A DNA stretch of 27,657 nt, from positions 1 through 27,657 of the IMG/VR virus record IMGVR_UViG_3300021178_000036; one strand, 5' to 3'. This document shows positions 3,156-27,657 of this stretch, one piece after another. The translations under genes were made by a program, and so were the position numbers. Every line of letters starts with the position of its first letter. The stretch's first letter is position 1. Below the pieces are notes generated by a model. The model saw nothing but the letters and a program-made list of their open reading frames with translations. It did no database searches and had not been told where the DNA came from. The stretch is from a virus.

Positions 3156-4066
3156 GGCATTTCAGTCGATTCGATCTGTATCTGCGGCGGGTAGATGCCG
3201 TCCGGATGCCTGGCCTTGAATATCTCCCGGCGCTCGTCCATCGTCTTGCCGCCGTAGTTATAATCTCCCCGCAGAAGCGTATGATACCTGTCCGCCTCGT
3301 CCATGGCCATACGCTGTATGCCGGCCTCCCTTACCGCCTGTACGAGCGCCTTCCTGACCTTGGGGATGAAAAGGATGATCGAGGCGATCCGGCTGAACGA
3401 TTTGAATGTCCGCTTGACGTTGTCGGCCGTCTCGCGTTCGGCGAAGATGCGGATGAGCTTCTGTACCTCGCGCTTCGGGTCGCTTATCATCCACCTGTCG
3501 CGCGTCTCGCTCATGACATCCTCGAGGCGGTAACGGTAGGCATCGTCGTATTCGACCACTGTGGCGATGTTCCGCGCGGTATAGCGGGCCACGTCCTCGC
3601 GTATCCCGAGATTCATGAGGAATGAACGGGCGAATTTTTTCAGGGCCCGGGCGGAGGGCGCATGCCGTTCGTCCTTGATGAAATGCCCCTGCATGAACCA
3701 TTCGATCGGCCGGTTGAACTCGTGGAGCGCCCGCTCGAGTACCCGCATCTTCATCTTCCAGGGCAGGATGGCCAGTCCGAGGATAGGCAGGATCATCTCC
3801 TTCATGGCGAGCGTGTTCACGAATACCAGTGACAGGCGCTTCATCACGTCGACCGCGTGAAGGGCTTCGGGATACGGGAATCCCTTTTTCGGATACGGCA
3901 GGCCCTTGTAGTAGACGAGGATGCCGCCCTCCTCCGGGTATTCGACGCGCTCGAAGATGTGGAAGATCGCGCCCTGCTGCATGATCGCGCCCTTATCGCC
4001 GATCACGCTGTGGCTCTCGAAGATCTTCTGGTCCGGCATGAGGACCTGGGCCGGTCCGCTACTCAT
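3152..4066 (-). CDS. Hypothetical 304-residue protein
   Basis: I do not recognise a family. The N-terminal third is beta-rich (GAIFHIFERVEYPEEGG, then YYKGLPYP). The rest is helical and basic with hydrophobic stretches near residues 87-106 (MILPILGLAILPWKM) and 228-238 (RIASIILFIP) that could be buried helices or weak membrane segments. The gene overlaps the end of the ParB-methyltransferase gene by 8 bases and is followed by tiny genes in ATGA contact. Its position next to the modification gene suggests an accessory or host-interaction role, but nothing in the sequence shows one. Confidence 0.65.
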   Translation of the reverse strand: MSSGPAQVLMPDQKIFESHSVIGDKGAIMQQGAIFHIFERVEYPEEGGILVYYKGLPYPKKGFPYPEALHAVDVMKRLSLVFVNTLAMKEMILPILGLAILPWKMKMRVLERALHEFNRPIEWFMQGHFIKDERHAPSARALKKFARSFLMNLGIREDVARYTARNIATVVEYDDAYRYRLEDVMSETRDRWMISDPKREVQKLIRIFAERETADNVKRTFKSFSRIASIILFIPKVRKALVQAVREAGIQRMAMDEADRYHTLLRGDYNYGGKTMDERREIFKARHPDGIYPPQIQIESTEMP

Positions 4067-5336
4067 TTTCTTTTTGGCGGGCGGCTACGATCCGGTCGTA
4101 GCGCTTCCTGATCACGTCGCAGAACTTCGGATCAAGCTCGATCATGAAGGCGCGCCGGCCGGTCTTGTCGCATGCGCTCATGACGCTTCCGCTTCCGGCG
4201 AAGGGATCGAGCACGATGTCCCCGCGCTTGGTCGAGTTCCTGATCGCGCGCATAGCCAACCAGTCGGGCTTCTCGGTCGGGTGGAGATAGTTGCTCGTCG
4301 CCTTTCTCGGCATCTCCCAGACATCATACTCGTTGTCGCCGTAGAACGTATGCACGCCGTCCTTCCATCCATACATGATGGATTCGGCGGTTTTGTTATC
4401 CGCCTTTTTGCCCTTGGCGATCCATTCGTGCTTGGCCTTGTAGTCGGCGTATGAGATCGTGCCACCCGGCTTCACCCAGATGATCATGCCGGAATGATAC
4501 AGTCCTGATTTGAGCGCACTCGAGAGGAATTGCGGATAGCTCTGCCAGCCCGAGCATACATAAAAGGCTGCGCCGGTCTTTGCGACCCTCAGCATATGCG
4601 TGAACGCTTTGTCGATGAATTCTTTGAAGGCCATAGGATCCATATTATCGTTCATGAGGGACCCTTTGCCTTCCTTCTTCAGCCCCCCCCCGTGAGATTT
4701 ATAATCGACGTTGTATGGCGGATCGGTCCATATCATGTCCGGCCGCACGCTCCCCAAGAGTTTGGTGTACGTCTCAGGGTCGGTAGCATCGCCACAGATG
4801 AGCCGGTGCTCGCCGAGCTCGTATATCTCGCCCGGTTTCGATATGGGATCGCCCTCGAGCACGAGCTTGTCGTCGTCCTCCGCCTCGGGCATGTTGCGGT
4901 CGAGTATCCGGCTGATCTCATCCTCGCGCATGCCGGTTGTGGGCAATGTCGGGCTATCCTTCATCTCGACGATCATGTTGTAGAGCTTGTCCTCGTCGAA
5001 CTTGCCGCCGATCCTGTTCAGCGCTATGTTCGCCTGCTTCTCGTCCTCGAGATTGAATTCGACGGTGAAGCAAGGAATATCCCATCCGACTTCCTGTGGA
5101 CCTTTTCGGTGAAGTCCTTTGATCTCGATTCCCTTGGCCAGCAACTTTTCCACCGCTGTCAGCCTCTGATGCCCGCCCACGATCGTGCCGTATCGCTCCT
5201 TGGCGATGTTGATGACAATAGGTTCGATGAAACCTTTTGACTCGATGGACTTCATCAAGGCCTGCATCTCCGCATCCGGCATGATGCGGGGGTTGTACTC
5301 GGCGCGCTTCAGATCTTTGATGGGGAAATGGGTCAT
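4059..5336 (-). CDS. ParB-like domain fused to DNA (adenine/cytosine-N4) methyltransferase
   Basis: The 425-residue product has an N-terminal ParB/Srx-like domain (about 1-125, core motif GGHQRL at 54-59). A linker leads to IYELGEHRLICGDATD (171-186) and a beta-class amino-methyltransferase: catalytic motif DPPYNV (205-210), HPTEKP (352-357) and SAM-binding DPFAGSGS (377-384). This architecture is common in phages and prophages, where the enzyme acts as an orphan methyltransferase that protects phage DNA from restriction; no restriction endonuclease is nearby. Three consecutive GGG codons at 216-218 form a nine-G tract just after the catalytic motif. The start is coupled by ATGA to the coiled-coil gene upstream. 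The recognition site cannot be read from the sequence. Confidence 0.92.
   Translation of the reverse strand: MTHFPIKDLKRAEYNPRIMPDAEMQALMKSIESKGFIEPIVINIAKERYGTIVGGHQRLTAVEKLLAKGIEIKGLHRKGPQEVGWDIPCFTVEFNLEDEKQANIALNRIGGKFDEDKLYNMIVEMKDSPTLPTTGMREDEISRILDRNMPEAEDDDKLVLEGDPISKPGEIYELGEHRLICGDATDPETYTKLLGSVRPDMIWTDPPYNVDYKSHGGGLKKEGKGSLMNDNMDPMAFKEFIDKAFTHMLRVAKTGAAFYVCSGWQSYPQFLSSALKSGLYHSGMIIWVKPGGTISYADYKAKHEWIAKGKKADNKTAESIMYGWKDGVHTFYGDNEYDVWEMPRKATSNYLHPTEKPDWLAMRAIRNSTKRGDIVLDPFAGSGSVMSACDKTGRRAFMIELDPKFCDVIRKRYDRIVAARQKENE
4683..4691 (-). repeat. G9 homopolymer inside methyltransferase gene
   Basis: Nine consecutive G residues on the coding strand encode Gly216-Gly218, immediately after the DPPY region. 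A one-base change would truncate the enzyme before its SAM-binding motif. Confidence 0.85.
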
Positions 5337-5750: not shown

Positions 5751-6086
5751 TCAGTCTTCGACTATGATTCCAAGCGCCTCGTGGAACTGTGCTACCTGTG
5801 AGGTATTAATTTTTGTCTTTCCGCCTCTACCATAAAATTTGGCCTGGAATAGGTCTGCGCCACCGAGGTCTGCGTCACGGAGGTTTGCGTCACGGAGGTT
5901 TGCGTCACGGAGGTTTGCGCCACGGAGGTTTGCGCCACCGAGGTCTGCGCCACGGAGGTTTGCGTCACGGAGGTTTGCGCCACCGAGGTCTGCGCGTGCC
6001 TCTACAGCTTCAATGACAGATTCCCGAAGATTCTCTTTTTTTGATTCGTAGACTACGTCCGAATTGTACCATTTGGTTATTTTCAT
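5751..6086 (-). CDS. Pentapeptide repeat protein
   Basis: Residues 31-82 of this 111-residue protein are about ten tandem pentapeptides of the form A(D/N)LXX ([15 protein letters not shown] and so on), which fold into a right-handed quadrilateral beta-helix. A short N-terminal head ([20 protein letters not shown]) and a 28-residue C-terminal tail flank it. Known members such as Qnr and MfpA mimic DNA and protect or inhibit gyrase, and others have unknown roles. A DNA-mimic or anti-restriction role beside two methyltransferases is possible but unproved. The leader is extremely A/T-rich with no Shine-Dalgarno sequence. Confidence 0.88.
5851..5985 (-). repeat. 15-bp tandem repeat array
   Basis: Nine back-to-back 15-base units with plus-strand consensus AGGTYTGCGYCACSG, plus a partial tenth from 5986. 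They encode the pentapeptides. Variation between units is confined to a few positions, so copy-number change by slippage would keep the frame. Confidence 0.95.
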
Positions 6087-9596: not shown

Positions 9597-9714
9597 TGAT
9601 TTTTTTGTTTATCTTCTTGCCTAATTTCCAGCCGGTCCGCACGGCGAGGACTAGGCCGATCGGCAGGCCGATCACGAGGACCGCGAAGAATACGAATAAA
9701 AATACGATGATCAT
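9589..9714 (-). CDS. Tiny single-span membrane protein
   Basis: A 41-residue frame whose first 24 residues are one long hydrophobic span (MIIVFLFVFFAVLVIGLPIG followed by LVLA). A basic tail with GKKINKK follows, predicting an N-out, C-in topology. Its ATG overlaps the stop of the Sak4-like gene (ATGA) and its end overlaps the following gene. The role is unknown. Confidence 0.5.
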   Translation of the reverse strand: MIIVFLFVFFAVLVIGLPIGLVLAVRTGWKLGKKINKKIND

Positions 9715-10706
9715 GCTTTTGCAGTCTCTGCGACTGGCGTGGCTTCGACCTTTGGTTCAGCTTTCTTCAGGCGTTTGCCGGTGCGGTCTATGACGCCGGC
9801 GTCGACGAGATCATCGAACCTGACGCGGAGGCGCCCGATAATCTCATCGTAGTTCGCCTCCTCGAGGGCAAGCTCGGTCAGCGACTTCACTACCGCCATG
9901 TATTCTACGCCGGTCGAGAGCTTCTCCTCGCTTATCGAATTCACCAGTCCCATGATTGTGCCTTTCTTGCCGGCCGAGCGCTTCTGCTTATTCGTCTGCT
10001 TCGTATCTTTCTTGGTGGCCGAATTCAGCCATTCAATCAAGAGCCGGCCAGTGCCTTCATTGATCGTGTCTACCCAATCCTTGAAAAGATTGGTACGGTC
10101 CTTCGAGCTGTGGGCGACATGATTCTGCTCGATATCCATAAAAACCGTAAATTCGTATTCCATGCCTTCACGCTGGACCGGCGCCATGCCGAGTTTCTTT
10201 ACCGAGCTTTTGCCGCTTTTCTCGTCGCGTTCGATAGCATAATCCTGTTTGCTTCTGACCGTTGCAATGATGTGGCTGTCGCAGTTAAGCATTCCATTAA
10301 CCAGTTTGCGGTGCTGAGGAGTAAGGCTTGCCCAGACGGTGAAACGGTTGCCGCCGGCGGAAAGCTTATCTGCCTGGTCAAGAAGACCTCCTTCATCGGT
10401 CCACGCATGGGAGAGCGAATCGATAATGATAACGTCATAACCGGCATCTTCGGCGGCTTCGATGGCTTCGACGTACTTGGCCGGCTGATACGGTGGTGTG
10501 AGTGTGATGATGTCATATTGTGTAAGGTCGGCATAGAGATCGCCCGAGCCGCGCTCGGTGTCGATCATGCAGATGCGTCCCTGCGGTCCGGCGATGCCAC
10601 GCGCGAGCTTCAAGGCGCTCATGGTCTTGCCGGAGCCGGACGGACCGGCGAGCCCGATGCGCAGCTTCGACTGCGACCTCTCGGCCTTTCTGATTTGTAT
10701 TGGCAT
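9711..10706 (-). CDS. Sak4-like RecA-fold ATPase (AAA_24 type)
   Basis: A 331-residue P-loop ATPase with Walker A GPSGSGKT (21-28), Walker B DVIIIDS (91-97), an acidic FMIDTERGSG-like element after strand 2 (IDTERGSGD, 48-56) and a sensor-like HIIATVRSKQDY. This is the layout of phage Sak4/AAA_24 single-strand annealing ATPases, short RecA relatives that work with SSB in recombination. A helical C-terminal extension (about 245-331, ending in an Ala/Glu-rich tail) follows a Lys-rich linker. The start MPIQIRKAERSQ was chosen over an upstream in-frame Met because the intervening 24 residues are not conserved-looking and overlap the preceding small gene. Confidence 0.8.
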   Translation of the reverse strand: MPIQIRKAERSQSKLRIGLAGPSGSGKTMSALKLARGIAGPQGRICMIDTERGSGDLYADLTQYDIITLTPPYQPAKYVEAIEAAEDAGYDVIIIDSLSHAWTDEGGLLDQADKLSAGGNRFTVWASLTPQHRKLVNGMLNCDSHIIATVRSKQDYAIERDEKSGKSSVKKLGMAPVQREGMEYEFTVFMDIEQNHVAHSSKDRTNLFKDWVDTINEGTGRLLIEWLNSATKKDTKQTNKQKRSAGKKGTIMGLVNSISEEKLSTGVEYMAVVKSLTELALEEANYDEIIGRLRVRFDDLVDAGVIDRTGKRLKKAEPKVEATPVAETAKA

Positions 10707-10716
10707 TTGTGTAGCT

Positions 10717-10842
10717 TTAATTTTTAATCTTCGACAGGATCGCGCGCATGGCTGCGTCATGATCCATGTTTCTATCACGCAAAATGCTCCGGTTGATCCG
10801 GAACCTCATTATCATTTCATAGATTTTTCGTATAGCTTTCAT
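10717..10842 (-). CDS. Small basic protein, first gene of replication operon
   Basis: A 41-residue frame, MKAIRKIYEMIMRFRINRSI and onward, ending ILSKIKN. It is basic and helical and could bind nucleic acid. It begins about 50 bases after the predicted start of transcription from the 10899-10927 promoter and ends 10 bases before the Sak4-like gene. A short leader of GAGATAATAATACAC precedes the ATG. No family was recognised. Confidence 0.45.
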   Translation of the reverse strand: MKAIRKIYEMIMRFRINRSILRDRNMDHDAAMRAILSKIKN

Positions 10843-12351: not shown

Positions 12352-13449
12352 TCACTTGAAGATGCCGTTCAATTTATCAATAGTCGGCTGGTCGACCACG
12401 CCGGTCTGCGTCAATCCGAAGTTGGCCTGGAACAGCACGACTGCGGCTTTGGTGATCCCGAAATAATTCCCGGTCGGCTTGATGACGGACGACACCGGGA
12501 ACATACCGAGCGATTGAAGCGCCTGTTGCAGCGCAAGAACGTCCGGTCCGGTTGAGCCGGTCTGGAGTTGCGTTGTCCACTGATGTTTCGGCGGAGGCAC
12601 GGTTGAGGGCGTCATGGCCTGGTACGAATCCGGCAGATTGATCAGGTACTGTCCGCCGTACATGCTGCCCTCATAATTCTGGCCGAGGAATTGCTGGCCG
12701 CCGATGCCGGCAGATGAGCCCCAGCTATTGTCTATGGCGAGGAATTTCTGGCCGTTCACGAGGCCGAAGTCGACGACCGGCACCTTGTGGTACCACGGAC
12801 CTGTCGGGCTTGCAGTCGGCTCCGGGAATGGCGACCGCCAGCTGCCGTTGTTGTAGCCGATCACGGTTATGGCCACGGCCTTCTTGATTCCCTGCTGCTG
12901 GTAGCCATAGAGGATCGAGGCGATTGTCTCGAAGTCGGTCGGGCACTGGATCACCTGCGCCGGCCGGTATAAAGGCGCGATGAGCTTGGCATCGAGGGGT
13001 ATCTTTGACGAATCCTCGGCTTGGCTCTCCGACAGGCCGTCCGAGGCGTACAGGGCTTCCAAGGCCATGCCTTTGGAGAGGGTGAAGTTGAAGACGTCAA
13101 TCGAGCTTGCGCCGCCGCCGGATTGGCAGACATACGGATAGACCGAATCCGGGGACAGATCGCGCCAGTAGCCGTTCTCCTGTAATTCGTCGATGGCGAG
13201 GAGCTTGGCAGCCGTGTAGCAGGTGCAGTCGCCTTTCTGTCCCTGATCGCGCTTCGGGTAGGTGGCGAATCCGCCGTTCGGATTCTTCTCAATCCAGACA
13301 GCCGGAGCTGATGCCCCCGCGATCTCCTTGTGCTGCGGAGCGTCAGGCAATAGGAAATGCTCAGGCTTGGCGAGCTCGCCGGTGCCGTTCACGCTCCCAT
13401 CGGAATGCGTATGCTCGAATAGCGCCATGAAATCTTGGAGTATGGTCAT
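12352..13449 (-). CDS. Endolysin: papain-like cysteine peptidase with peptidoglycan-binding domain
   Basis: The 365-residue protein has a papain-fold (C1A) catalytic domain. Q69-GQKGD-C75 reproduces the spacing of papain's oxyanion Gln and nucleophile Cys, H221 lies in PWYHKVPVVDFG, and N241 lies in AIDNSWG, the C1 Asn signature. Residues 293-363 are a PG_binding_1 domain (LQTGSTGPDVLALQQALQSL ... YFGITKAAVVLFQ). A Pro-rich linker (TPSTVPPPK) joins them. There is no signal peptide, consistent with release by a holin. The substrate could be a peptidoglycan cross-link or a host surface protein. It overlaps the XhlA-like gene by ATGA within the lysis cassette. Most phage lysins are amidases, glycosidases or CHAP/NlpC peptidases, so a C1A enzyme is unusual. 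Confidence 0.85.
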   Translation of the reverse strand: MTILQDFMALFEHTHSDGSVNGTGELAKPEHFLLPDAPQHKEIAGASAPAVWIEKNPNGGFATYPKRDQGQKGDCTCYTAAKLLAIDELQENGYWRDLSPDSVYPYVCQSGGGASSIDVFNFTLSKGMALEALYASDGLSESQAEDSSKIPLDAKLIAPLYRPAQVIQCPTDFETIASILYGYQQQGIKKAVAITVIGYNNGSWRSPFPEPTASPTGPWYHKVPVVDFGLVNGQKFLAIDNSWGSSAGIGGQQFLGQNYEGSMYGGQYLINLPDSYQAMTPSTVPPPKHQWTTQLQTGSTGPDVLALQQALQSLGMFPVSSVIKPTGNYFGITKAAVVLFQANFGLTQTGVVDQPTIDKLNGIFK

Positions 13450-13772
13450 AGGTATTTTAACACAATTTCGAGAACGACAAGAGCGATGCCAATGATGCTT
13501 CCCCAGGTCTTGATCATGGTCCGTATCTCATCGGTTGATGTTTCGACTTTCCGCATCCGCAATTCATGGTCGTGCGTGATTTTTTCGACTTCATTGAAGC
13601 TCTTTGTTGCGTCCTCCTTGGAGAGCTTGGTGGCATCAAGGAGGGCCACTCGCTGGCTCATCGAGCCTCCCATCTCCCTCACCTCGCGGGTCAGATTTTT
13701 AAGCTGCTCATCCACGCGGATAAGGAGCTCGTAGTTCTGCGCCGACTTTGTGTTCTGTTCGTCTGGTGTCAT
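13446..13772 (-). CDS. XhlA-like lysis-associated membrane protein
   Basis: The real start is the ATG at 13770-13772, in ATGA overlap with the glycine-rich gene, giving 108 residues. A long coiled coil (about 15-86, with IRVDEQLKNLTREVREMGGS) leads to one C-terminal membrane span (WGSIIGIALVVLEIVLKYL). This matches the XhlA haemolysin/holin-associated family of Gram-positive phages, which helps place lysins at the membrane. It lies directly upstream of the lysin gene. Alternatively it could be a plain tail-to-membrane anchor. Confidence 0.65.
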   Translation of the reverse strand: MTPDEQNTKSAQNYELLIRVDEQLKNLTREVREMGGSMSQRVALLDATKLSKEDATKSFNEVEKITHDHELRMRKVETSTDEIRTMIKTWGSIIGIALVVLEIVLKYL

Positions 13773-14461
13773 ATTGAGTATGTCTCGACGATGACCACGC
13801 CATTGCCGCCCAAGCCTGCCGTTCCCGTTCCCGTCGCGCCGCCTGCGCCGCCGCCGTAAGATCCGCCAGGATTGCCACTGGTGTTTCCGCCGATGAACCC
13901 TACGCCTCCGCCGCCAAGTTGATTGCTTCCGCCAGAACCAGCAGATGGCGATGCTCCTGATGCTGTTCCGTTCGTTCCGGGACCGCCGACGACTGCTACG
14001 GTCGATCCGGTGCCGCCTCCTACGCCGCCTGCGCCGCCGCCGCCTCCGGTCGATGCTCCGTTTGCGCCTGCCGTGCCACCAGTCGCAGTCAGATATGCCC
14101 CGAAGCTCGAGGTGCCGCCCGGCGCGCCCCCTGTGCCTACCGTGATCGCGACCGTAAGAGTGAGGACAGCCGTAAGGGTTATCATCTCCGCATATCCGCC
14201 CGCGCCGCCGCCACCGCCGCCGCCGGCCGCTGAATTGCCTGCGCCGCCATTGCCTCCGCCGCCCACTACGCGCACGCGCACCCATTTTGCTCCGGCCGGC
14301 CGGTTCCAAGTCGCATTCGCGGTATAGACAAGGATGCCGGGATTCGATGAGAACGATGGGTCGATGACGCCTCCGGTCGTAGTCGCCACGAGCTGTAAGA
14401 CGCCAGCCCTTGACTGGACGACATCCGACGCGAGAATAGTTGAGCCTGGGGAGATTGACAT
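13769..14461 (-). CDS. Glycine-rich tail adhesin
   Basis: A 230-residue protein. The N-terminal 60 residues look like a tail-attachment segment (MSISPGSTILASDVVQSRAG ... YTANATWNRPAGAKWVRVRV), then WVRVRVVGGGGNGG begins a run of glycine islands to the C-terminus (GGVGGG, LGGGGVGFIGG, YGGGAGG). This is the layout of Gly-rich tail-fiber tip domains (Gly_rich_2) and of the T-even gp38 adhesins, whose polyglycine loops carry the receptor-binding segments. It is the last tail gene before the lysis cassette, a usual place for a host-recognition protein. Confidence 0.75.
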   Translation of the reverse strand: MSISPGSTILASDVVQSRAGVLQLVATTTGGVIDPSFSSNPGILVYTANATWNRPAGAKWVRVRVVGGGGNGGAGNSAAGGGGGGGAGGYAEMITLTAVLTLTVAITVGTGGAPGGTSSFGAYLTATGGTAGANGASTGGGGGAGGVGGGTGSTVAVVGGPGTNGTASGASPSAGSGGSNQLGGGGVGFIGGNTSGNPGGSYGGGAGGATGTGTAGLGGNGVVIVETYSI

Positions 14462-14463
14462 AT

Positions 14464-15018
14464 TTAATTAATCGTTATATTCACGGCCACAGTTATATCG
14501 GTGCCCGCCGCCTTCACATATGGCGTAGTGAATAAAGCATGATTGAATAATTGCCCGGAGCTCAATGTCGCCGAGCCGTCGACGAACGTGCCGAATTCAG
14601 TATATGTCTGATTGGCGAGCGAGGCATCAGTGAAAAAGAATTGCAATTGCGCCTGGTTGTTTCCCGAGTCGACCGATGTGGCCGTGGCAGTCCGGGCTGT
14701 CGGCAATCCGAGCTTGGTGTCGGTGATGGCGACCACAGCCGATGACGTGCCGATCTCGCCCCACAGGATATTGCCGGTATAGGTGTTTACGGTACATAGA
14801 CGCTGGATGATCAGGTCTTTGCCGGTGTTCGCTCCCTGCATGATGAGATTTCGGGTCACCGAGGCCACCCGGCCTTTCTGGATTATCGAGAGCGCCGAGG
14901 CTTTTTGTCCGACCTTGATCAGATCTCGGAGGATGGCAATCGTGCCCTTCGGATGCTCGCGGATGGTGATCTCGCCAGTCATTCCCGAGGATTCATTGAC
15001 TTTGAGAATTGCCTGCAT
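14464..15018 (-). CDS. Tail tip/collar structural protein
   Basis: The start is at MQAILKVNESSGMTGEITIR (184 residues); the upstream in-frame part is basic and unlike the body and overlaps the preceding gene. The product is beta-rich, with GEIGTSSAVVAITDTKLGLP followed by FFFTDASLANQTYTEFGTFV and ending GTDITVAVNITIN. This pattern of alternating strands and a terminal D-I-T-V strand is typical of phage tail-tip or collar proteins. The 31 bases between it and the hub gene hold no Shine-Dalgarno sequence. Confidence 0.6.
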   Translation of the reverse strand: MQAILKVNESSGMTGEITIREHPKGTIAILRDLIKVGQKASALSIIQKGRVASVTRNLIMQGANTGKDLIIQRLCTVNTYTGNILWGEIGTSSAVVAITDTKLGLPTARTATATSVDSGNNQAQLQFFFTDASLANQTYTEFGTFVDGSATLSSGQLFNHALFTTPYVKAAGTDITVAVNITIN

Positions 15019-15049
15019 GGTGTTTATTGTAACATTTTTTATGCTGCCT

Positions 15050-16516
15050 CTATCCCCAACTTGCAAGGTTCCAGCTTCCGGCCTGCCCGGCTGTCGGGCT
15101 CCATTTATACGCCTTGGTTGTTTTCGATGTCGGAGCGGAGAGCGAATCGGATGATGTGAGCGTCTCATCGATCTCGAGGAGCACTTCAAGGACCGTCGTA
15201 TCGTCGGTCACGTTGGTCGCGAGTCCCTGTTGCAGGATGGTAGACATCAGATCGACGAATGTCACGTTGTCGGAGCCGAGGCATTGGACATTATAGCGGA
15301 GCTGCGTCGGCGAGTATCCCATGCCTTCGATGCGCTTGATGACGAGCGCGGTCGAGCCGGTGTACGAGACATTGAAGATGGTCGAGGTCACGTTGATCGT
15401 CTGGCCGATCCGGAGGCCCGTCGATAGCGTATTGAATTTCACGTCATGGACCTGGTCGCCGAACTGGAGTATCTCGGCCTGCGCTCTCTGCTGAGCCTCG
15501 GCGATCGATTTTATCTGCTTGTCGATGATGGCGTCCTGGTATTCGCCCCATTTCAATATCGAACTCTGGTTCAGGGCGTGGCCGATGATCGGTATCTCGG
15601 CCGTGCCGTAGACGACGATGGCGGCGGCATTGGCCGGCGTCGCCGTGAACGTGATGTTCTGCTTGGTCGAGTCGTAGAGCACGTCATATACGCCGGAGGC
15701 TCCGGAATTCGCCGTGCCGATCGTCTTTGAGACGCCGCCCACGGTCACCGTCATGGTCGACTGGATATATTTATAGCGCAGGTAGTAGACGGTCTGCGTG
15801 CCGTTCCCGAGATAGTTGTCGGGCGTGGTGATGGCCGTTAAGACGCTCTTATAGGTCGCACCGATCACGAAGACGCTGTTTTTCAGGTTGGCCAGGTTGA
15901 GATTGACGTCGATCGTCGGCCATTCCTGGTTGCCGGAGGTGTCGTCTATATTGAATGGCGCGGCGGTGCCTTCGGTGAGGAAGAAGTGCACATCCTTGGC
16001 GGAGTCCACATACCAGTCCCAGCCGATCTGCTTGGCGATCGCCTCGATGCACTTCGTCACCGGCTCATAGTTGAACTTGATCGAGGGGATGGTGTAGCCG
16101 GCCAGATTGACGTTGTTCGTGGTGAAGCCGGAGCAGTAGGTCGAGACGATGTTCTTCACGATCGTGCCCGGATCGGTCGCGGTGTATGACTGGACGACCA
16201 AGAGGCCGTTCATGTTGAATCCGAAGTCGGTGCAGGTCACCTGGTCGACGAGGAGGATGCCGCCTTTCTGCCCGTCCACGATCGTGTCGATCTCGGTGAT
16301 CGTGCCGCCGAACAGCGTGGACTTCACAGCGCCGACCGTCTCATAGAGATACACCGTGTCGCCGATCTGCGCGCCGTATTTTCCGGTCACGCGGCGGATA
16401 TCGAATTTCAGCGTCGAGACTTCCTTGGTGAGGACCATGAGTAAATCGACCGATGACCAGTCGATTGAATTCGAGACGTCGACGCCATTGGCCTGTATTG
16501 AAACGACTATTGACAT
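15050..16516 (-). CDS. Tail hub / baseplate protein (Tal- or gp27-like)
   Basis: A 488-residue protein right after the tape measure, where siphophages encode the distal tail or hub. The first third is beta-rich with TLKFDIRRVTGKYGAQIGDT and VYLYETVGAVKSTLFGGTIT, like the hub domain of gp27/Gp44-type proteins. The middle has FNYEPVTKCIEAIAKQIGWD-type helices (residues 145-180), and the end has the ALVIKRIEGMGYSP-like strand common to late-control D/tail hub proteins. Exact family unknown. It carries no lysozyme or protease motif. The TMP stop and this ATG are 3 bases apart. Confidence 0.7.
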   Translation of the reverse strand: MSIVVSIQANGVDVSNSIDWSSVDLLMVLTKEVSTLKFDIRRVTGKYGAQIGDTVYLYETVGAVKSTLFGGTITEIDTIVDGQKGGILLVDQVTCTDFGFNMNGLLVVQSYTATDPGTIVKNIVSTYCSGFTTNNVNLAGYTIPSIKFNYEPVTKCIEAIAKQIGWDWYVDSAKDVHFFLTEGTAAPFNIDDTSGNQEWPTIDVNLNLANLKNSVFVIGATYKSVLTAITTPDNYLGNGTQTVYYLRYKYIQSTMTVTVGGVSKTIGTANSGASGVYDVLYDSTKQNITFTATPANAAAIVVYGTAEIPIIGHALNQSSILKWGEYQDAIIDKQIKSIAEAQQRAQAEILQFGDQVHDVKFNTLSTGLRIGQTINVTSTIFNVSYTGSTALVIKRIEGMGYSPTQLRYNVQCLGSDNVTFVDLMSTILQQGLATNVTDDTTVLEVLLEIDETLTSSDSLSAPTSKTTKAYKWSPTAGQAGSWNLASWG

Positions 16517-22470: not shown

Positions 22471-23784
22471 CTAGGAGACCGAGGTCTGACCGATCACGAA
22501 GGCCTGGGGAAGCACCGGAGTGAAAGCGTGGCGGTGCTTGTACACGATGCCGCGCTGATCCGCCAATGCCACTTCCTTGCCGCCGAACGAGCCTGACTCG
22601 AACTGGGCCACGCGCATCTCGCCTTTGTCGCCGAAGGCCGTGGCCTTCAGGTTGCCGAAGATGATGAATGGCGTGTTCGCCGTCGCGGCGTTTGCAGCCG
22701 GGAGAGGCGGGAGCCAGCGGTTCGTATAGACGGGGAAGCCCAAGATCTGGCCTGCCGGACGCACCGGACCGCCCAAGGGGTCCATCCCCAAGGCCACCGG
22801 CAGCGATGCCACTGAAGGCAGTCCGCCGAAAGGCAGGATGAAGTTACCCGATTGGTCCTTCTGGGTGCGGAGGGCCGCCCAGACGGTGCGGTGGCAGTAG
22901 AATGCGGCGCCGTCGAGGATCGATTCCTCGAGAAGGCCGATCATGTTCGAGCTGTCGCGGAGCACGTCGAAGCCGTTAAGCGTCGACGTGGTCGAGTCGT
23001 TGCTGAACTTGGTATAGCCCGAGGTCGAGCTATTGCCCGCATAATACTGCGTCGCAGTGATGCCGGGGACGGCACCCTGCAATCCGATGGAAAGTCCGAG
23101 GATGCCCAGGAACGGGCCCTGAACGGTCACGCCGTTCGCGGTGTTCCCTGAGCCGCCGAGGAATCCTTGCTGGTCGATCATGTTCGCGAGGGCTTCGCCG
23201 CCTAGGGCGAGGAGCCAGTCCGCGAGCTGGACCGAGGCATCCGCCAGAAGGTCGTTGCCGACCACGAAGGCGAGCTGCCATTTCTTGGCGATCAAGACCG
23301 CCTGGCCGAAGGTGATGCCGGTTACCGTGCCTGCCACGTCGACCCCGAGATACGCGCCGGTCAGGTACGATCCGGTGTAGTTCGGGATGGCGAGCTCGTC
23401 GGTCTTCATGGGCCACTTCATGGCCTGGCTCATGATGGTGCCGACCGAGGCGGCGATGCGCAGGATCGCGTCAGCGACCTCGCGGGATACCAGGTATCCG
23501 CCGCGATTGTCCTGCTCCTCGATCAGGGCTTCGTTGGCCTTCAGGTCCACGCCTTCCAACTTGGCGGCGGCCTGGGCGACCCGGACGAAGTCCTTCTTCT
23601 GCTTGTCAGACAGGAGCGTGATATCCCTTCCGAACATCGTGCGCTCCATCTTCATCTTCTCGACGACCTCCCGCGCCTTTTGCGTGGAGATGTCGCCGAT
23701 CAGAGGTTCGAGCTTCTTGGTGAAGCTCTCGTCGATCGAGTCCTCAATTGTCTTTTTGAGGGCGTCGACTTGTGTTTTTTCCAT
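22471..23784 (-). CDS. Major capsid protein, HK97 fold
   Basis: A 437-residue capsid protein. The first 100 residues are charged and helical, resembling the delta domain that acts as a scaffold and is removed by the protease. Then NRGGYLVSREVADAILRIAA begins the HK97 fold (N-arm and E-loop), followed by WQLAFVVGNDLLADASVQLA, GFLGGSGNTANGVTVQGPFL and a late CHRTVWAALRTQKDQSG. Standard signs are the LVxxEV-type start and the GxGSGNxxxG motif. The gene lies six bases after the protease gene. Confidence 0.92.
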   Translation of the reverse strand: MEKTQVDALKKTIEDSIDESFTKKLEPLIGDISTQKAREVVEKMKMERTMFGRDITLLSDKQKKDFVRVAQAAAKLEGVDLKANEALIEEQDNRGGYLVSREVADAILRIAASVGTIMSQAMKWPMKTDELAIPNYTGSYLTGAYLGVDVAGTVTGITFGQAVLIAKKWQLAFVVGNDLLADASVQLADWLLALGGEALANMIDQQGFLGGSGNTANGVTVQGPFLGILGLSIGLQGAVPGITATQYYAGNSSTSGYTKFSNDSTTSTLNGFDVLRDSSNMIGLLEESILDGAAFYCHRTVWAALRTQKDQSGNFILPFGGLPSVASLPVALGMDPLGGPVRPAGQILGFPVYTNRWLPPLPAANAATANTPFIIFGNLKATAFGDKGEMRVAQFESGSFGGKEVALADQRGIVYKHRHAFTPVLPQAFVIGQTSVS

Positions 23785-23790
23785 TGATGA

Positions 23791-25188
23791 CTACTTCGGG
23801 TCTTTGTCCTGCTTGTTAAACTTTCGCAGGACTTTGCCCAAAGCATTATCAAGCGTTCTCACCAGCTCGCGATCCTTCAGGAACTCTTCGAGTCCTTTGG
23901 ACGGTGCGTCTGCCGGTAGAGGTTTTCGACCATTCGCGGGTCTGGCATTCTCGGTGCCAGACTTCTTATCGCCCTCTGCTCCCGCGTGAGCATTCAAGGC
24001 GGTGATCAAAGCTTTCATGGTCGTGATAAACTCGTCCGCTCCTTTGCCTCCGGTCGTGTCATCCATGTCCTCGGCAACGGCGTCCGACATGTCCCTGAAG
24101 CATTCGATGAGCTTGGATGAGTGATGGAACGATTCCTTGGAATGGCGCTCATGCTCGAGATCCGTGGCATGGGTAAAATCCTTGTGATGGCCGTCGACGG
24201 CGTCCTTGAAGACCTCCATGGCGTCCTTGATGATCTGCGGTCCGTTGTTATCGTCCTCATCATCCTTTCCGGCCTCGTCATCCTTGCCGGCATCATCCTT
24301 GCTCTTGGACACGCCCTTGTAGGCGTCCTTGATGGCGTCCTTGAAGACATCCATCGAGTCCTTGATGGCGTCCTTGTGAGCCTTGTGAGCTTTCATGTGG
24401 GCGTCTTTATGAGCCTTGTGCTCGGCGGTCATGGCGTCCTTGAAAACTTGAACGGCATCCGCCATCGTGTCCTTGTGTGATTTCTCCATGTCTTTTTCGG
24501 GTACGCAGATCATCGGTCCGCCGGGGTTCGAGGGGTCATCGCTTAGGATGCCCGGAGTCCCGTCGTCGAGGGTGCAGCGTGCGCCCGGTTGAGGTTCCTT
24601 AATGCTGATAATGCCGATCCCTTTAGTTTTCATGAGAGACACATCGATCCCGAGCTCCTTGATCTGGTCCTGCGTGAGCGCGTGGGGGTTGGCCGGCACC
24701 GGCACGAACGAGAATTCCAGGAGCTCCGCCTTGGTGATGGTGTTGTAGTCTATTGTACCATGGTCGTCGACAGCGTACTCGGTCGGGATGAAGCCGACGG
24801 ACGTTGTCCGGACCATGCCAAGATCGTAGAGCCTCCGCACCTGCTGGGCGAAGGGGTTGGCCTCGATCGGCGCAAACTTGCCCTGGGCGCGGAGGGCGCC
24901 CGAGGCGTTGTCTATCGAGGTGCAGGTGCCGATCGGAAGGGCGCTGTAGTCATGAGCCCAGAGGACGACCGGATTGGTCTTATAGAAGGCCAGATTCCAG
25001 CCTGCCTGATCCACCGATTCGCCCTGGCGGTCGACATCGTCGGTCGAGACGATCACATCGAACGTGCCCGAGTCCTCGTCAGAGGCCGCTTTCGTGGCAG
25101 CGATCAGATTCTTCACGGCGCTGTCGGCGATCCGGGCGATGATCTTCTTCCTTATTTCAGTTGTGAGCTTGAGAGTGGAGTCTGCCAT
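23791..25188 (-). CDS. Prohead protease with long charged C-terminal domain
   Basis: Residues 1-185 are an HK97-type (S78) prohead protease: TNPVVLWAHDYSALPIG contains catalytic H79, and MVRTTSVGF contains nucleophile S130, followed by ELLEFSFVPVPANPHA. It matures the capsid inside the prohead. The remaining ~280 residues are low-complexity and unusual, with repeated K/H/D units (HKAHKDAHMKAHKAHKDAIK, then SKSKDDAGKDDEAGKDDEDD) and a Leu-rich helical end. This likely replaces a separate scaffold protein. A perfect TATAAT sits 13 bases ahead of the ATG, giving a nearly leaderless message. Confidence 0.9.
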   Translation of the reverse strand: MADSTLKLTTEIRKKIIARIADSAVKNLIAATKAASDEDSGTFDVIVSTDDVDRQGESVDQAGWNLAFYKTNPVVLWAHDYSALPIGTCTSIDNASGALRAQGKFAPIEANPFAQQVRRLYDLGMVRTTSVGFIPTEYAVDDHGTIDYNTITKAELLEFSFVPVPANPHALTQDQIKELGIDVSLMKTKGIGIISIKEPQPGARCTLDDGTPGILSDDPSNPGGPMICVPEKDMEKSHKDTMADAVQVFKDAMTAEHKAHKDAHMKAHKAHKDAIKDSMDVFKDAIKDAYKGVSKSKDDAGKDDEAGKDDEDDNNGPQIIKDAMEVFKDAVDGHHKDFTHATDLEHERHSKESFHHSSKLIECFRDMSDAVAEDMDDTTGGKGADEFITTMKALITALNAHAGAEGDKKSGTENARPANGRKPLPADAPSKGLEEFLKDRELVRTLDNALGKVLRKFNKQDKDPK

Positions 25189-25433: not shown

Positions 25434-27657
25434 TCAATATGTGAAGTTTGAAGACTGCTGGCAGATTATCCCGATGCTTTTCGTCGTAAGCGAAGCACTC
25501 AAGTTAAGCACCACGGTCGAAGGCGTCGAGCTCGCATCGGAGACCGTCGTTCCTCCCGATTCGTCAGAGGCCACGCAGACGGGGGTATAGGCGTATTTGT
25601 GGGCTAAATTGATTGTGAGCGAGGTTACCCCGACTCCAGTAATAGTCCGCATGGTCTGGTCGTCTCCCACGACCGAAGAGCATCCGGCTCCGCATGTCGG
25701 GCTGTTCCCTCCCGTTATCTTGTGCCCGTTCGCGTCTATCTGGAAAATAGTCGATGTAGCCGTTCCTGTGCCTGTCGTCGAGGCGATAGTGAAGAATGAA
25801 GTAAATGGCGACTGCGAGCTGTCCTCCTGGATGGATAGAAGGCTTCCTGGCGTCGTCGTGCCGCCTATGCCCACATAGTTATTATCATTCCTAACCACGA
25901 GGCCGTTATCGAGATAATAAGGCGGTGCGCTGAATCCTTTGCCAATGTATACATCAGGAATGGTGAAAGCTATGGCACAAGAATATCCTACGCCTGCACT
26001 AGTATTGTTCGTAAAACTAAAGGCTGGACCACCACATGATCCTGCGAGCTGTGAGAAATTTATTATCGCCTGCCCTCCGAAATCCGCCTGTGACAAGCCA
26101 TTCAGGAAAATGTAATTACCGGCATTACCATTATAGAGAATCGGGCCACCTGATGTGTTTGTGTCATAGCAGAGACGAGCGTCGGTATGTCCCGAAAAAG
26201 TGAATCCGTTGCCTTGAGCGCATACTCCTGCGATAGATGCCGTAGTAATCACACCTCCTTGAAGGAACGACTGACCTGTTACAGTCACTGCCGTTGAAGA
26301 AGCATACGGCAATTGCGAGGCGATAGTTCCAGTTGCCGTATAATGATCTGCCACTACGCCTGTCGAGCCGACCACGGAAAGGGCGGCATATGGAGAGGTT
26401 GTCGCTATGCCAACAAATCCACCAAATGTGCTTGTCGCTATAGATGAAGTGGCAATAAGTGAACCTACCGTAAGTGGATTTGTCGAAGTCCCTGATACGG
26501 CCGTGCCGTTCGATGAGTACCACGCGAGCTGCGGAGTATTTCCCGTGTTCACCGTGCCGCTTCCTCCGCCACCACTGCCCCCGACGCAGGTGCCGGATAT
26601 TGCAAAACATCCTTTTGAGAGATTGATTCCATTGCCGTAGAAGCTGGAAGTAGCAGTCGTGAAATTGGCGACGCCGTTCACGGAAAGGATCGAGCCTGGC
26701 GTAGTCGTGCCCAGGCCCATGTTGCCGTTGTTGGCGACGATGAGAGCGGGCGCGCCGCCTGATGCGCCGTTCGTCGTCGAGGCGATGACGAAATCGGGGA
26801 AGGGATAGGTTGATGAGGCGCTGACCGCCAGCTTCGCCCAAGGCGAGGTCGTGCCGATGCCGACGGCCGCGTCTCCGGTGTTGGATGCCGAGGCGATATG
26901 CTTGATGACCATATCGTAGGTTGACGATGCAAAGCTCGGACCAGATGAGAAAGCAATGGTATTTGAGGCGTTATTGGCCGAGGTAGCACCAAAGACAAGG
27001 CCGCCGTCTGATGTCTCGACTACCATCCCATTCGGAGGCACGCCGGAGAAAGCGGAGAAGTTCGGACCCATCAGGCAGATGTCACCTTCATTGGTCGAGG
27101 GATTAGGCGCGATTCCGCCTATAAGCCCTTGACCCATCGTGCCGCCATTTGCAAAAGTGATGCAGCCGGAGGCATATATCCCTTGATCCATATTGCCGAG
27201 CGTAAGAAGGCTTACGAGATCGGATTGGCTGGTCGATACCTGTATCTGCGGTATGGATTGCGTCAGAAATAATCCTTGGAGGTCGAACTGGCCTTGCTTG
27301 AAAGAATTGCCGACCATTATATTTCCGAGGAATGTCGAGGTGGCGGCAGACGATATGGCATTGAACGATTGAGCCGTCGAGACAGGCTGGATGGCCGTTA
27401 TGGTTCCATTTATCCTTGACGGCGAATAGGTCACGTCCGATGCCACTTGAATCGTACTGCCGGTATTCTTCAGGTCTACGGAAGTTAAGGACGGCGGACC
27501 GTTGTTCGAGGAAGATGCCACGCCGCCGTAAATCGAGACGATGCCGGAATTGATTATGTTATATCCGGTGTTCGAGGTTCCGCCGCCTTGGGCGGTCACC
27601 TGGCTGTTCCAGACGTTCATGTTACCGGCGTTGTTCATGGAGATGCCGTCAGTGACT
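25434..27657 (-). CDS. Large tail fiber or surface protein, partial at right edge
   Basis: The frame is open to the window edge, reading VTDGIS before the first Met (27638), so the N-terminus lies outside; 740 residues are visible. Repeats of the form G-[IL]-[GA]-T-T-[ST]-P occur at residues 260-272, 308-320, 410-422 and, as a variant, 590-602 (numbered from that Met), each followed by a hydrophobic strand. Ser/Thr/Gly-rich linkers (VGGSGGGGSGTVNTGN) separate them. The C-terminal 100 residues (from NGHKITGGNSPTCG) form a Cys-containing beta domain. Such repeats are familiar from large Parcubacteria surface proteins, so the phage may share adhesin domains with its host. Confidence 0.8.
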   Translation of the reverse strand, partial: VTDGISMNNAGNMNVWNSQVTAQGGGTSNTGYNIINSGIVSIYGGVASSSNNGPPSLTSVDLKNTGSTIQVASDVTYSPSRINGTITAIQPVSTAQSFNAISSAATSTFLGNIMVGNSFKQGQFDLQGLFLTQSIPQIQVSTSQSDLVSLLTLGNMDQGIYASGCITFANGGTMGQGLIGGIAPNPSTNEGDICLMGPNFSAFSGVPPNGMVVETSDGGLVFGATSANNASNTIAFSSGPSFASSTYDMVIKHIASASNTGDAAVGIGTTSPWAKLAVSASSTYPFPDFVIASTTNGASGGAPALIVANNGNMGLGTTTPGSILSVNGVANFTTATSSFYGNGINLSKGCFAISGTCVGGSGGGGSGTVNTGNTPQLAWYSSNGTAVSGTSTNPLTVGSLIATSSIATSTFGGFVGIATTSPYAALSVVGSTGVVADHYTATGTIASQLPYASSTAVTVTGQSFLQGGVITTASIAGVCAQGNGFTFSGHTDARLCYDTNTSGGPILYNGNAGNYIFLNGLSQADFGGQAIINFSQLAGSCGGPAFSFTNNTSAGVGYSCAIAFTIPDVYIGKGFSAPPYYLDNGLVVRNDNNYVGIGGTTTPGSLLSIQEDSSQSPFTSFFTIASTTGTGTATSTIFQIDANGHKITGGNSPTCGAGCSSVVGDDQTMRTITGVGVTSLTINLAHKYAYTPVCVASDESGGTTVSDASSTPSTVVLNLSASLTTKSIGIICQQSSNFTY

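Follow-up and report, generated by a model that had tools for sequence, protein, structure and literature searches.

Phages of Patescibacteria are nearly all known through metagenomes, and how such a phage treats the cell surface of these surface-dependent, episymbiotic bacteria is the question on which the present observations bear.

For groundwater-metagenome phages linked to Paceibacteria, genes acting in host surface adhesion have been proposed, including concanavalin A-like lectin domains and O-antigen sugar genes (PMC12911398). The phage described below resembles them in its probable link to Paceibacteria and in a proposed surface-adhesion role for phage genes. The genes in those phages are, however, reported as auxiliary metabolic genes, whereas our phage carries a large predicted exported repeat protein at a fixed site in the head operon, in which no lectin domain was detected. 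RSA-ATP1, together with related Absconditicoccaceae prophages, is a described tailed phage of Patescibacteria (PMC13059738). Compared by description, it is similar to ours in being tailed, in its (for our phage, likely) Patescibacteria host and in having related proviruses; it differs in its Code-25 host group, and searching the text of that report gave no mention of tail fibres and mentions of signal peptides for host proteins only.

Exported phage proteins that act at the surface of the infected cell are represented by the lipoproteins Llp of T5 (PMC9586334) and Ltp of TP-J34 (PMC3952083). The likeness (an export signal and action at the infected-cell surface) is a functional analogy only, and no homology would be expected: Llp and Ltp are small superinfection-exclusion lipoproteins, whereas the protein studied here is 1013 amino acids long, rich in repeats, without a lipobox and encoded in a head operon.

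In the open-access literature we found no description of a head operon with a cassette for exported proteins, and what appears to be new relative to these systems is a cassette of proteins with predicted signal peptides that occupies the portal-protease interval across a phage family. Dozens of related phages, probably from two host phyla, have such a cassette with predicted secretion signals in their head operon, which is at odds with the customary annotation of these genes as tail or head fibres.

The window phage and its repeat protein

The DNA analysed here (the window) is a stretch of 27,657 nucleotides, the IMG/VR fragment IMGVR_UViG_3300021178_000036, and is most of a circularly mapping tailed phage of roughly 34 kb. 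All window coordinates given in the text refer to features on its minus strand. A sister contig, IMGVR_UViG_3300050821_006364 (34,192 bases), is identical to the window (100%) over 21,776 bases and bridges both window ends; since its own ends meet inside a pentapeptide-repeat gene that is uninterrupted in the window (5751-6086), the genome is a circular map of ~34 kb. Assembly of the sister contig failed at the tandem repeat array of that gene, within which its ends fall. The 6.4 kb gained from the sister contig contain the large terminase, the portal, a 279-residue gene and the 5' start of the repeat protein gene.

The repeat protein gene lies directly upstream of the genes for an S78 prohead protease (23791-25188; PF04586, phrog_80) and an HK97-type major capsid protein (22471-23784; PF05065), the latter being the marker that defines the phage family. 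Its product, predicted to be exported and rich in Ser, Thr and Gly, is 1013 residues long (L002:9182-12223). The window covers the C-terminal 740 residues (25434-27657), with the frame open at the window end, and the 273 N-terminal residues, including the signal peptide, are absent from the window and supplied by L002:9182-10000.

Four units of the GIGTTSPxAxLxV type are present in the protein (mean 0.001 and maximum 1 in 5000 shuffles), in agreement with the repeats that an earlier, sequence-only reading had described in a 'fiber': GIGTTSPWAKLAV (26823-26861), GLGTTTPGSILSV (26679-26717), GIATTSPYAALSV (26373-26411) and GIGGTTTPGSLLSI (25830-25871). The second of these is followed by a GCFAISGTCV...GSGTVNTGNTPQLAWYSSNGTAVSGTS linker, a style that is also found in Paceibacteria host proteins (L101). 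The C-terminal N-G-H-x-I-T-x-G domain described by the same reading is likewise there, as NGHKITGG (FQIDANGHKITGG...PVCVASDESGG, about 25437-25745), and this C-terminus is related to that of the protein at the same position in L005. Paceibacteria host proteins (L098-L118) share with the phage protein a VGIGTTSPxAKLxV repeat unit, Ser/Thr-rich linkers and a GCFAxxGxCV segment, and one of them (L109) also has a signal-like start; they differ in that the phage domain following the signal peptide was not found there.

Pfam, PHROG and PDB sequence searches with the repeat protein gave no match, and no relative was found among 50,697 phage records. A pattern scan of genome contigs also gave no match, exact degenerate words being likely to miss repeat proteins, and AlphaFold2, run on residues 30-420 as a single sequence, returned an unusable model (mean pLDDT 35).

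The protein begins with MKTIYKFLIGIGSAVVLATAIFAMPVFGQAFNN, a predicted Sec-type signal peptide (MKTIYKFLIGIGSAVVLATAIFAMPVFGQA) with a hydropathy peak of 2.19 at residue 8. Residues 1-61 contain no cysteine, and thus no lipobox cysteine. The gene's ATG and the stop codon of the preceding 279-residue gene overlap (ATGA), and a start/stop overlap of this kind also occurs in L004, L079 and L193. Following the signal peptide is a motif, W-x-x-x-S-G-x-L-x-P-x-x-S-x-W-x-L-x-I-P, that is common to the window phage, L004, L005 and L079. A search of 162 Paceibacteria genomes for it gave nothing beyond a single marginal match containing stops. Because this motif is common to several phages and was not found in the sampled hosts, the N-terminus of the repeat protein looks phage-specific and its body host-like.

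Scanning for the same N-terminus returned one further contig with the motif, L193, which is otherwise a different phage. Its portal gene (phrog_12) and a 117-residue gene, which weakly resembles the end of the 279-residue gene (E 0.17), are succeeded by an ATGA-coupled gene whose product has a predicted signal peptide and the motif. The occurrence of this portal - small gene - exported protein module in a different phage lineage (L193, 5633-7720) suggests that it moves between phages.

The portal-protease interval across the phage family

For the phage family, 79 other IMG/VR loci were kept, with capsid identities of 46-73%; no close capsid relative was found among the 50,697 phage records (best 24%). 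Whereas the capsids are conserved to that degree, the repeat protein can be aligned with no more than 3 other cassette proteins and, judged by such alignments, is hypervariable within the family. In those loci that hold both portal and protease, the interval between them is either empty or contains variable genes, one or several in number and for the most part rich in Ser and Thr. The sequence-only reading had placed the gene correctly, upstream of the prohead protease, but had considered this location unusual; the portal-protease site in fact recurs family-wide.

Signal peptides were predicted with a home-made rule, not SignalP, that looks for a positive n-region, an uncharged hydrophobic core and a cleavage-like site, applied to genes called as greedy longest ORFs (some of the starts are wrong). 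Of 145 interval genes, 61 have signal-peptide-like starts, whereas among the remaining plus-strand genes of these loci the count is 13 of 617 (Fisher p ~1e-36); this p value is overstated, because related loci are not independent, although the contrast is still large. A second, similar rule, applied after removing identical proteins and correcting the start of the window protein, gave 59/138 in the interval and 15/638 elsewhere. Clear signal-peptide layouts include MKKLISKIALAAFALIAMATPAHA-QVF (L005) and MRKLAGLILMGLWAGLSIGMIAQPLSSAHA-AYL (L035). The AxA cleavage motif was dropped as non-discriminating, because shuffles reach 0.88.

Across this uncultured phage family, the space between portal and protease is occupied by a variable cassette of proteins predicted to be exported. 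In the majority of the proviruses found in Patescibacteria genomes, portal and protease have nothing encoded between them, and a signal-peptide cassette is present in an Acidobacteriota prophage (described below); the cassette is therefore not tied to Patescibacteria biology.

A proposed role at the infected-cell surface

Considering its predicted signal peptide, its host-like repeats and the similar, putatively exported proteins at the same place in dozens of related phages, the repeat protein may dress the surface of the infected cell. Our main reading, to which we would assign about even odds (roughly 0.5), is that it is a late-expressed, Sec-exported and hypervariable adhesin of a Patescibacteria phage that alters the infected-cell surface, and is not a conventional tail fibre. 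The gene lies outside the tail cluster, between portal and protease, and its product has no Pfam or PHROG match.

The position of the gene, its repeats, the start/stop overlap, its variability and the similarity of the repeats to Paceibacteria proteins are direct observations, and the course of events that we propose around them is as follows. The protein would be translated together with the head genes, with its ATGA coupling to the portal-adjacent 279-residue gene, probably late in infection, and would pass through the Sec machinery by means of its predicted signal peptide. The long variable body with its Patescibacteria-style repeats would then be either exposed on the outside of the infected cell or shed from it. 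Binding at the cell surface might be altered as a result, so that re-adsorption of progeny and of competitors would be blocked or attachment between cells changed. Since none of the genes in the 34-kb genome was recognised as an integrase, lysogenic conversion seems less likely than a role in late infection.

The main rival is a fibre of the virion head or neck. The hydrophobic N-terminus would then serve in assembly or as an anchor, and the repeat body would protrude from the portal or head and bind host cells. The head-operon site between portal and protease agrees with such a fibre, as does the coupling to a portal-adjacent gene; the repeats are of low complexity and fibre-like, the hypervariability is of the kind seen in receptor-binding proteins, and some interval genes of relatives have no predicted signal peptide. 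Exported proteins, however, would leave the compartment in which capsids are assembled, and canonical signal-peptide layouts occur in many interval proteins and in almost none of the other structural genes. The phage also has separate, ordinary tail-fibre-like genes in its tail cluster (13769-15054; phrog_863, phrog_6202 and phrog_4176). We consider a head or neck fibre rather unlikely, and the earlier suggestion that the gene might encode a head fibre is weakened by the predicted signal peptide, found also in many interval genes of relatives, and by those tail-fibre-like genes.

The host and the origin of the repeats

The adhesin reading places the phage in Patescibacteria, which comparisons of its genes indicate to be the likely host phylum; the class is probably Paceibacteria. 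When one genome per species (84,980 species) was scanned with the capsid, related capsids turned up in nine. One each belongs to Taylorbacteria, Nomurabacteria, Peribacteria and Uhrbacteria, two are labelled 'Patescibacteria group', two are small and unplaced (0.7 and 1.6 Mb), and the ninth is an Acidobacterium MAG. Whole-genome sampling added 2 more among 380 Patescibacteria genomes and none among 247 Acidobacteriota. The capsid and TerL are 50-56% and 43-56% identical, respectively, to those of named or small-genome Patescibacteria proviruses. One such provirus, UBA926, has cellular flanks, with SecA-like/Mur genes on one side and SecD/F-like genes on the other (assigned by eye).

Genes for a methylase, a RecA-like protein, a RusA-like protein and a lysin are common to the window phage and the Patescibacteria proviruses (Nomurabacteria, Taylorbacteria and UBA926). 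The ParB-N/N6 DNA methyltransferase (4059-5336) shares 62% and 59% identity with its Nomurabacteria and Taylorbacteria provirus copies, respectively, as compared with ~32-38% for methylases in other sampled genomes of both phyla and at most 38% for known phages among the matches listed. The RecA/Sak4-like AAA protein (9711-10778) is 50% identical to the UBA926 provirus copy. The endolysin (12352-13449), which combines a papain-type (C1A-like) cysteine peptidase-like N-terminal part, recognised by eye, with PG_binding_1, has distant homologues in the Nomurabacteria provirus and in related viral contigs.

Matches to the fibre repeats, with a closely similar linker style, occur in 18 of 286 Paceibacteria genomes and in none of 149 Acidobacteriota genomes. 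The claim that such repeats are typical of Parcubacteria is in this respect upheld; it does not extend to the cassette, which most Patescibacteria proviruses are missing and the Acidobacteriota prophage possesses. Two further checks that the sequence-only reading had proposed concerned spacers and tetranucleotides. A comparison of 20 kb of the window with 286 Paceibacteria genomes gave short repeat-like or provirus matches and no spacer-like match, an absence that does not amount to exclusion. The tetranucleotide correlation of the phage genome with a Paceibacteria contig was r=0.67, and is not discriminating, with a nearly equal value of 0.65 for the Acidobacteriota prophage.

It is improbable, although not negligibly so, that the host is instead an acidobacterium or a member of another soil phylum and that the likeness of the repeats to those of Patescibacteria arose by convergence of low-complexity sequence. 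In the capsid tree the window clade (L002, L004 and L005; 97% support) groups with the clade of the Acidobacteriota prophage (88% support) and not with the Patescibacteria proviruses, so that capsid phylogeny by itself leaves the choice of host undecided. That prophage does carry both an integrase and a signal-peptide cassette within a 232-kb Acidobacteriota contig. Its replication, modification and lysis genes, however, are not those that the window phage shares with the Nomurabacteria, Taylorbacteria and UBA926 proviruses: counterparts of the methylase, RecA-like, RusA-like and lysin genes were found neither in it nor in L053, L059 and L060, and the lysin is absent from G002. The lack of fibre-repeat matches in the 149 Acidobacteriota genomes also speaks against such a host, as does the shared N-terminal motif in L079, a member of a Patescibacteria-rich capsid clade.

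The prophage itself (L084) is an element of ~50 kb in the sister capsid clade, located at ~116-165 kb of the Acidobacterium MAG contig PKVY01000081.1. Its integrase is common to its viral relatives and borders the element. We considered whether the contig might be mis-binned or chimeric and rejected this, the outer genes being ordinary chromosomal ones and the integrase at the element border being that of the phage family. These features suggest that the sister capsid clade infects Acidobacteriota. The idea of a Patescibacteria-infecting phage is thus favoured by the shared provirus genes and by the repeats in Paceibacteria, but its relatives are not confined to Patescibacteria.

It is very unlikely that the gene was simply acquired from a host not long ago, as a surface gene that does nothing for the phage: the repeats and linkers of its product do resemble those of Paceibacteria proteins, down to short stretches of DNA, but its position, its coupling and its phage-specific N-terminal motif are the same in several phages, and that motif was not found in the sampled host genomes.

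More tentatively, the adhesin reading could be extended to the whole family. Phages spanning Patescibacteria and Acidobacteriota would then share a hypervariable portal-protease slot for one to several Sec-exported proteins, made with the head, that reshape the infected-cell surface and could alter attachment between an episymbiont and its partner.

Two conserved proteins were also observed in the interval of sister clades. One, of ~185 residues (MNNKxLIxxV...GGDFAGGIxPSQL), has a signal-anchor-like start and lies directly before the protease in a sister clade (L053 7825-8394, L060 7507-8055, L084 and others). The other, of ~190 residues and without a signal peptide (WWNxTDYPDPSxDPNxEIVRVT), precedes the exported proteins (for example L053 1534-2106 and L014 5097-5639) and looks like a fibre base protein.
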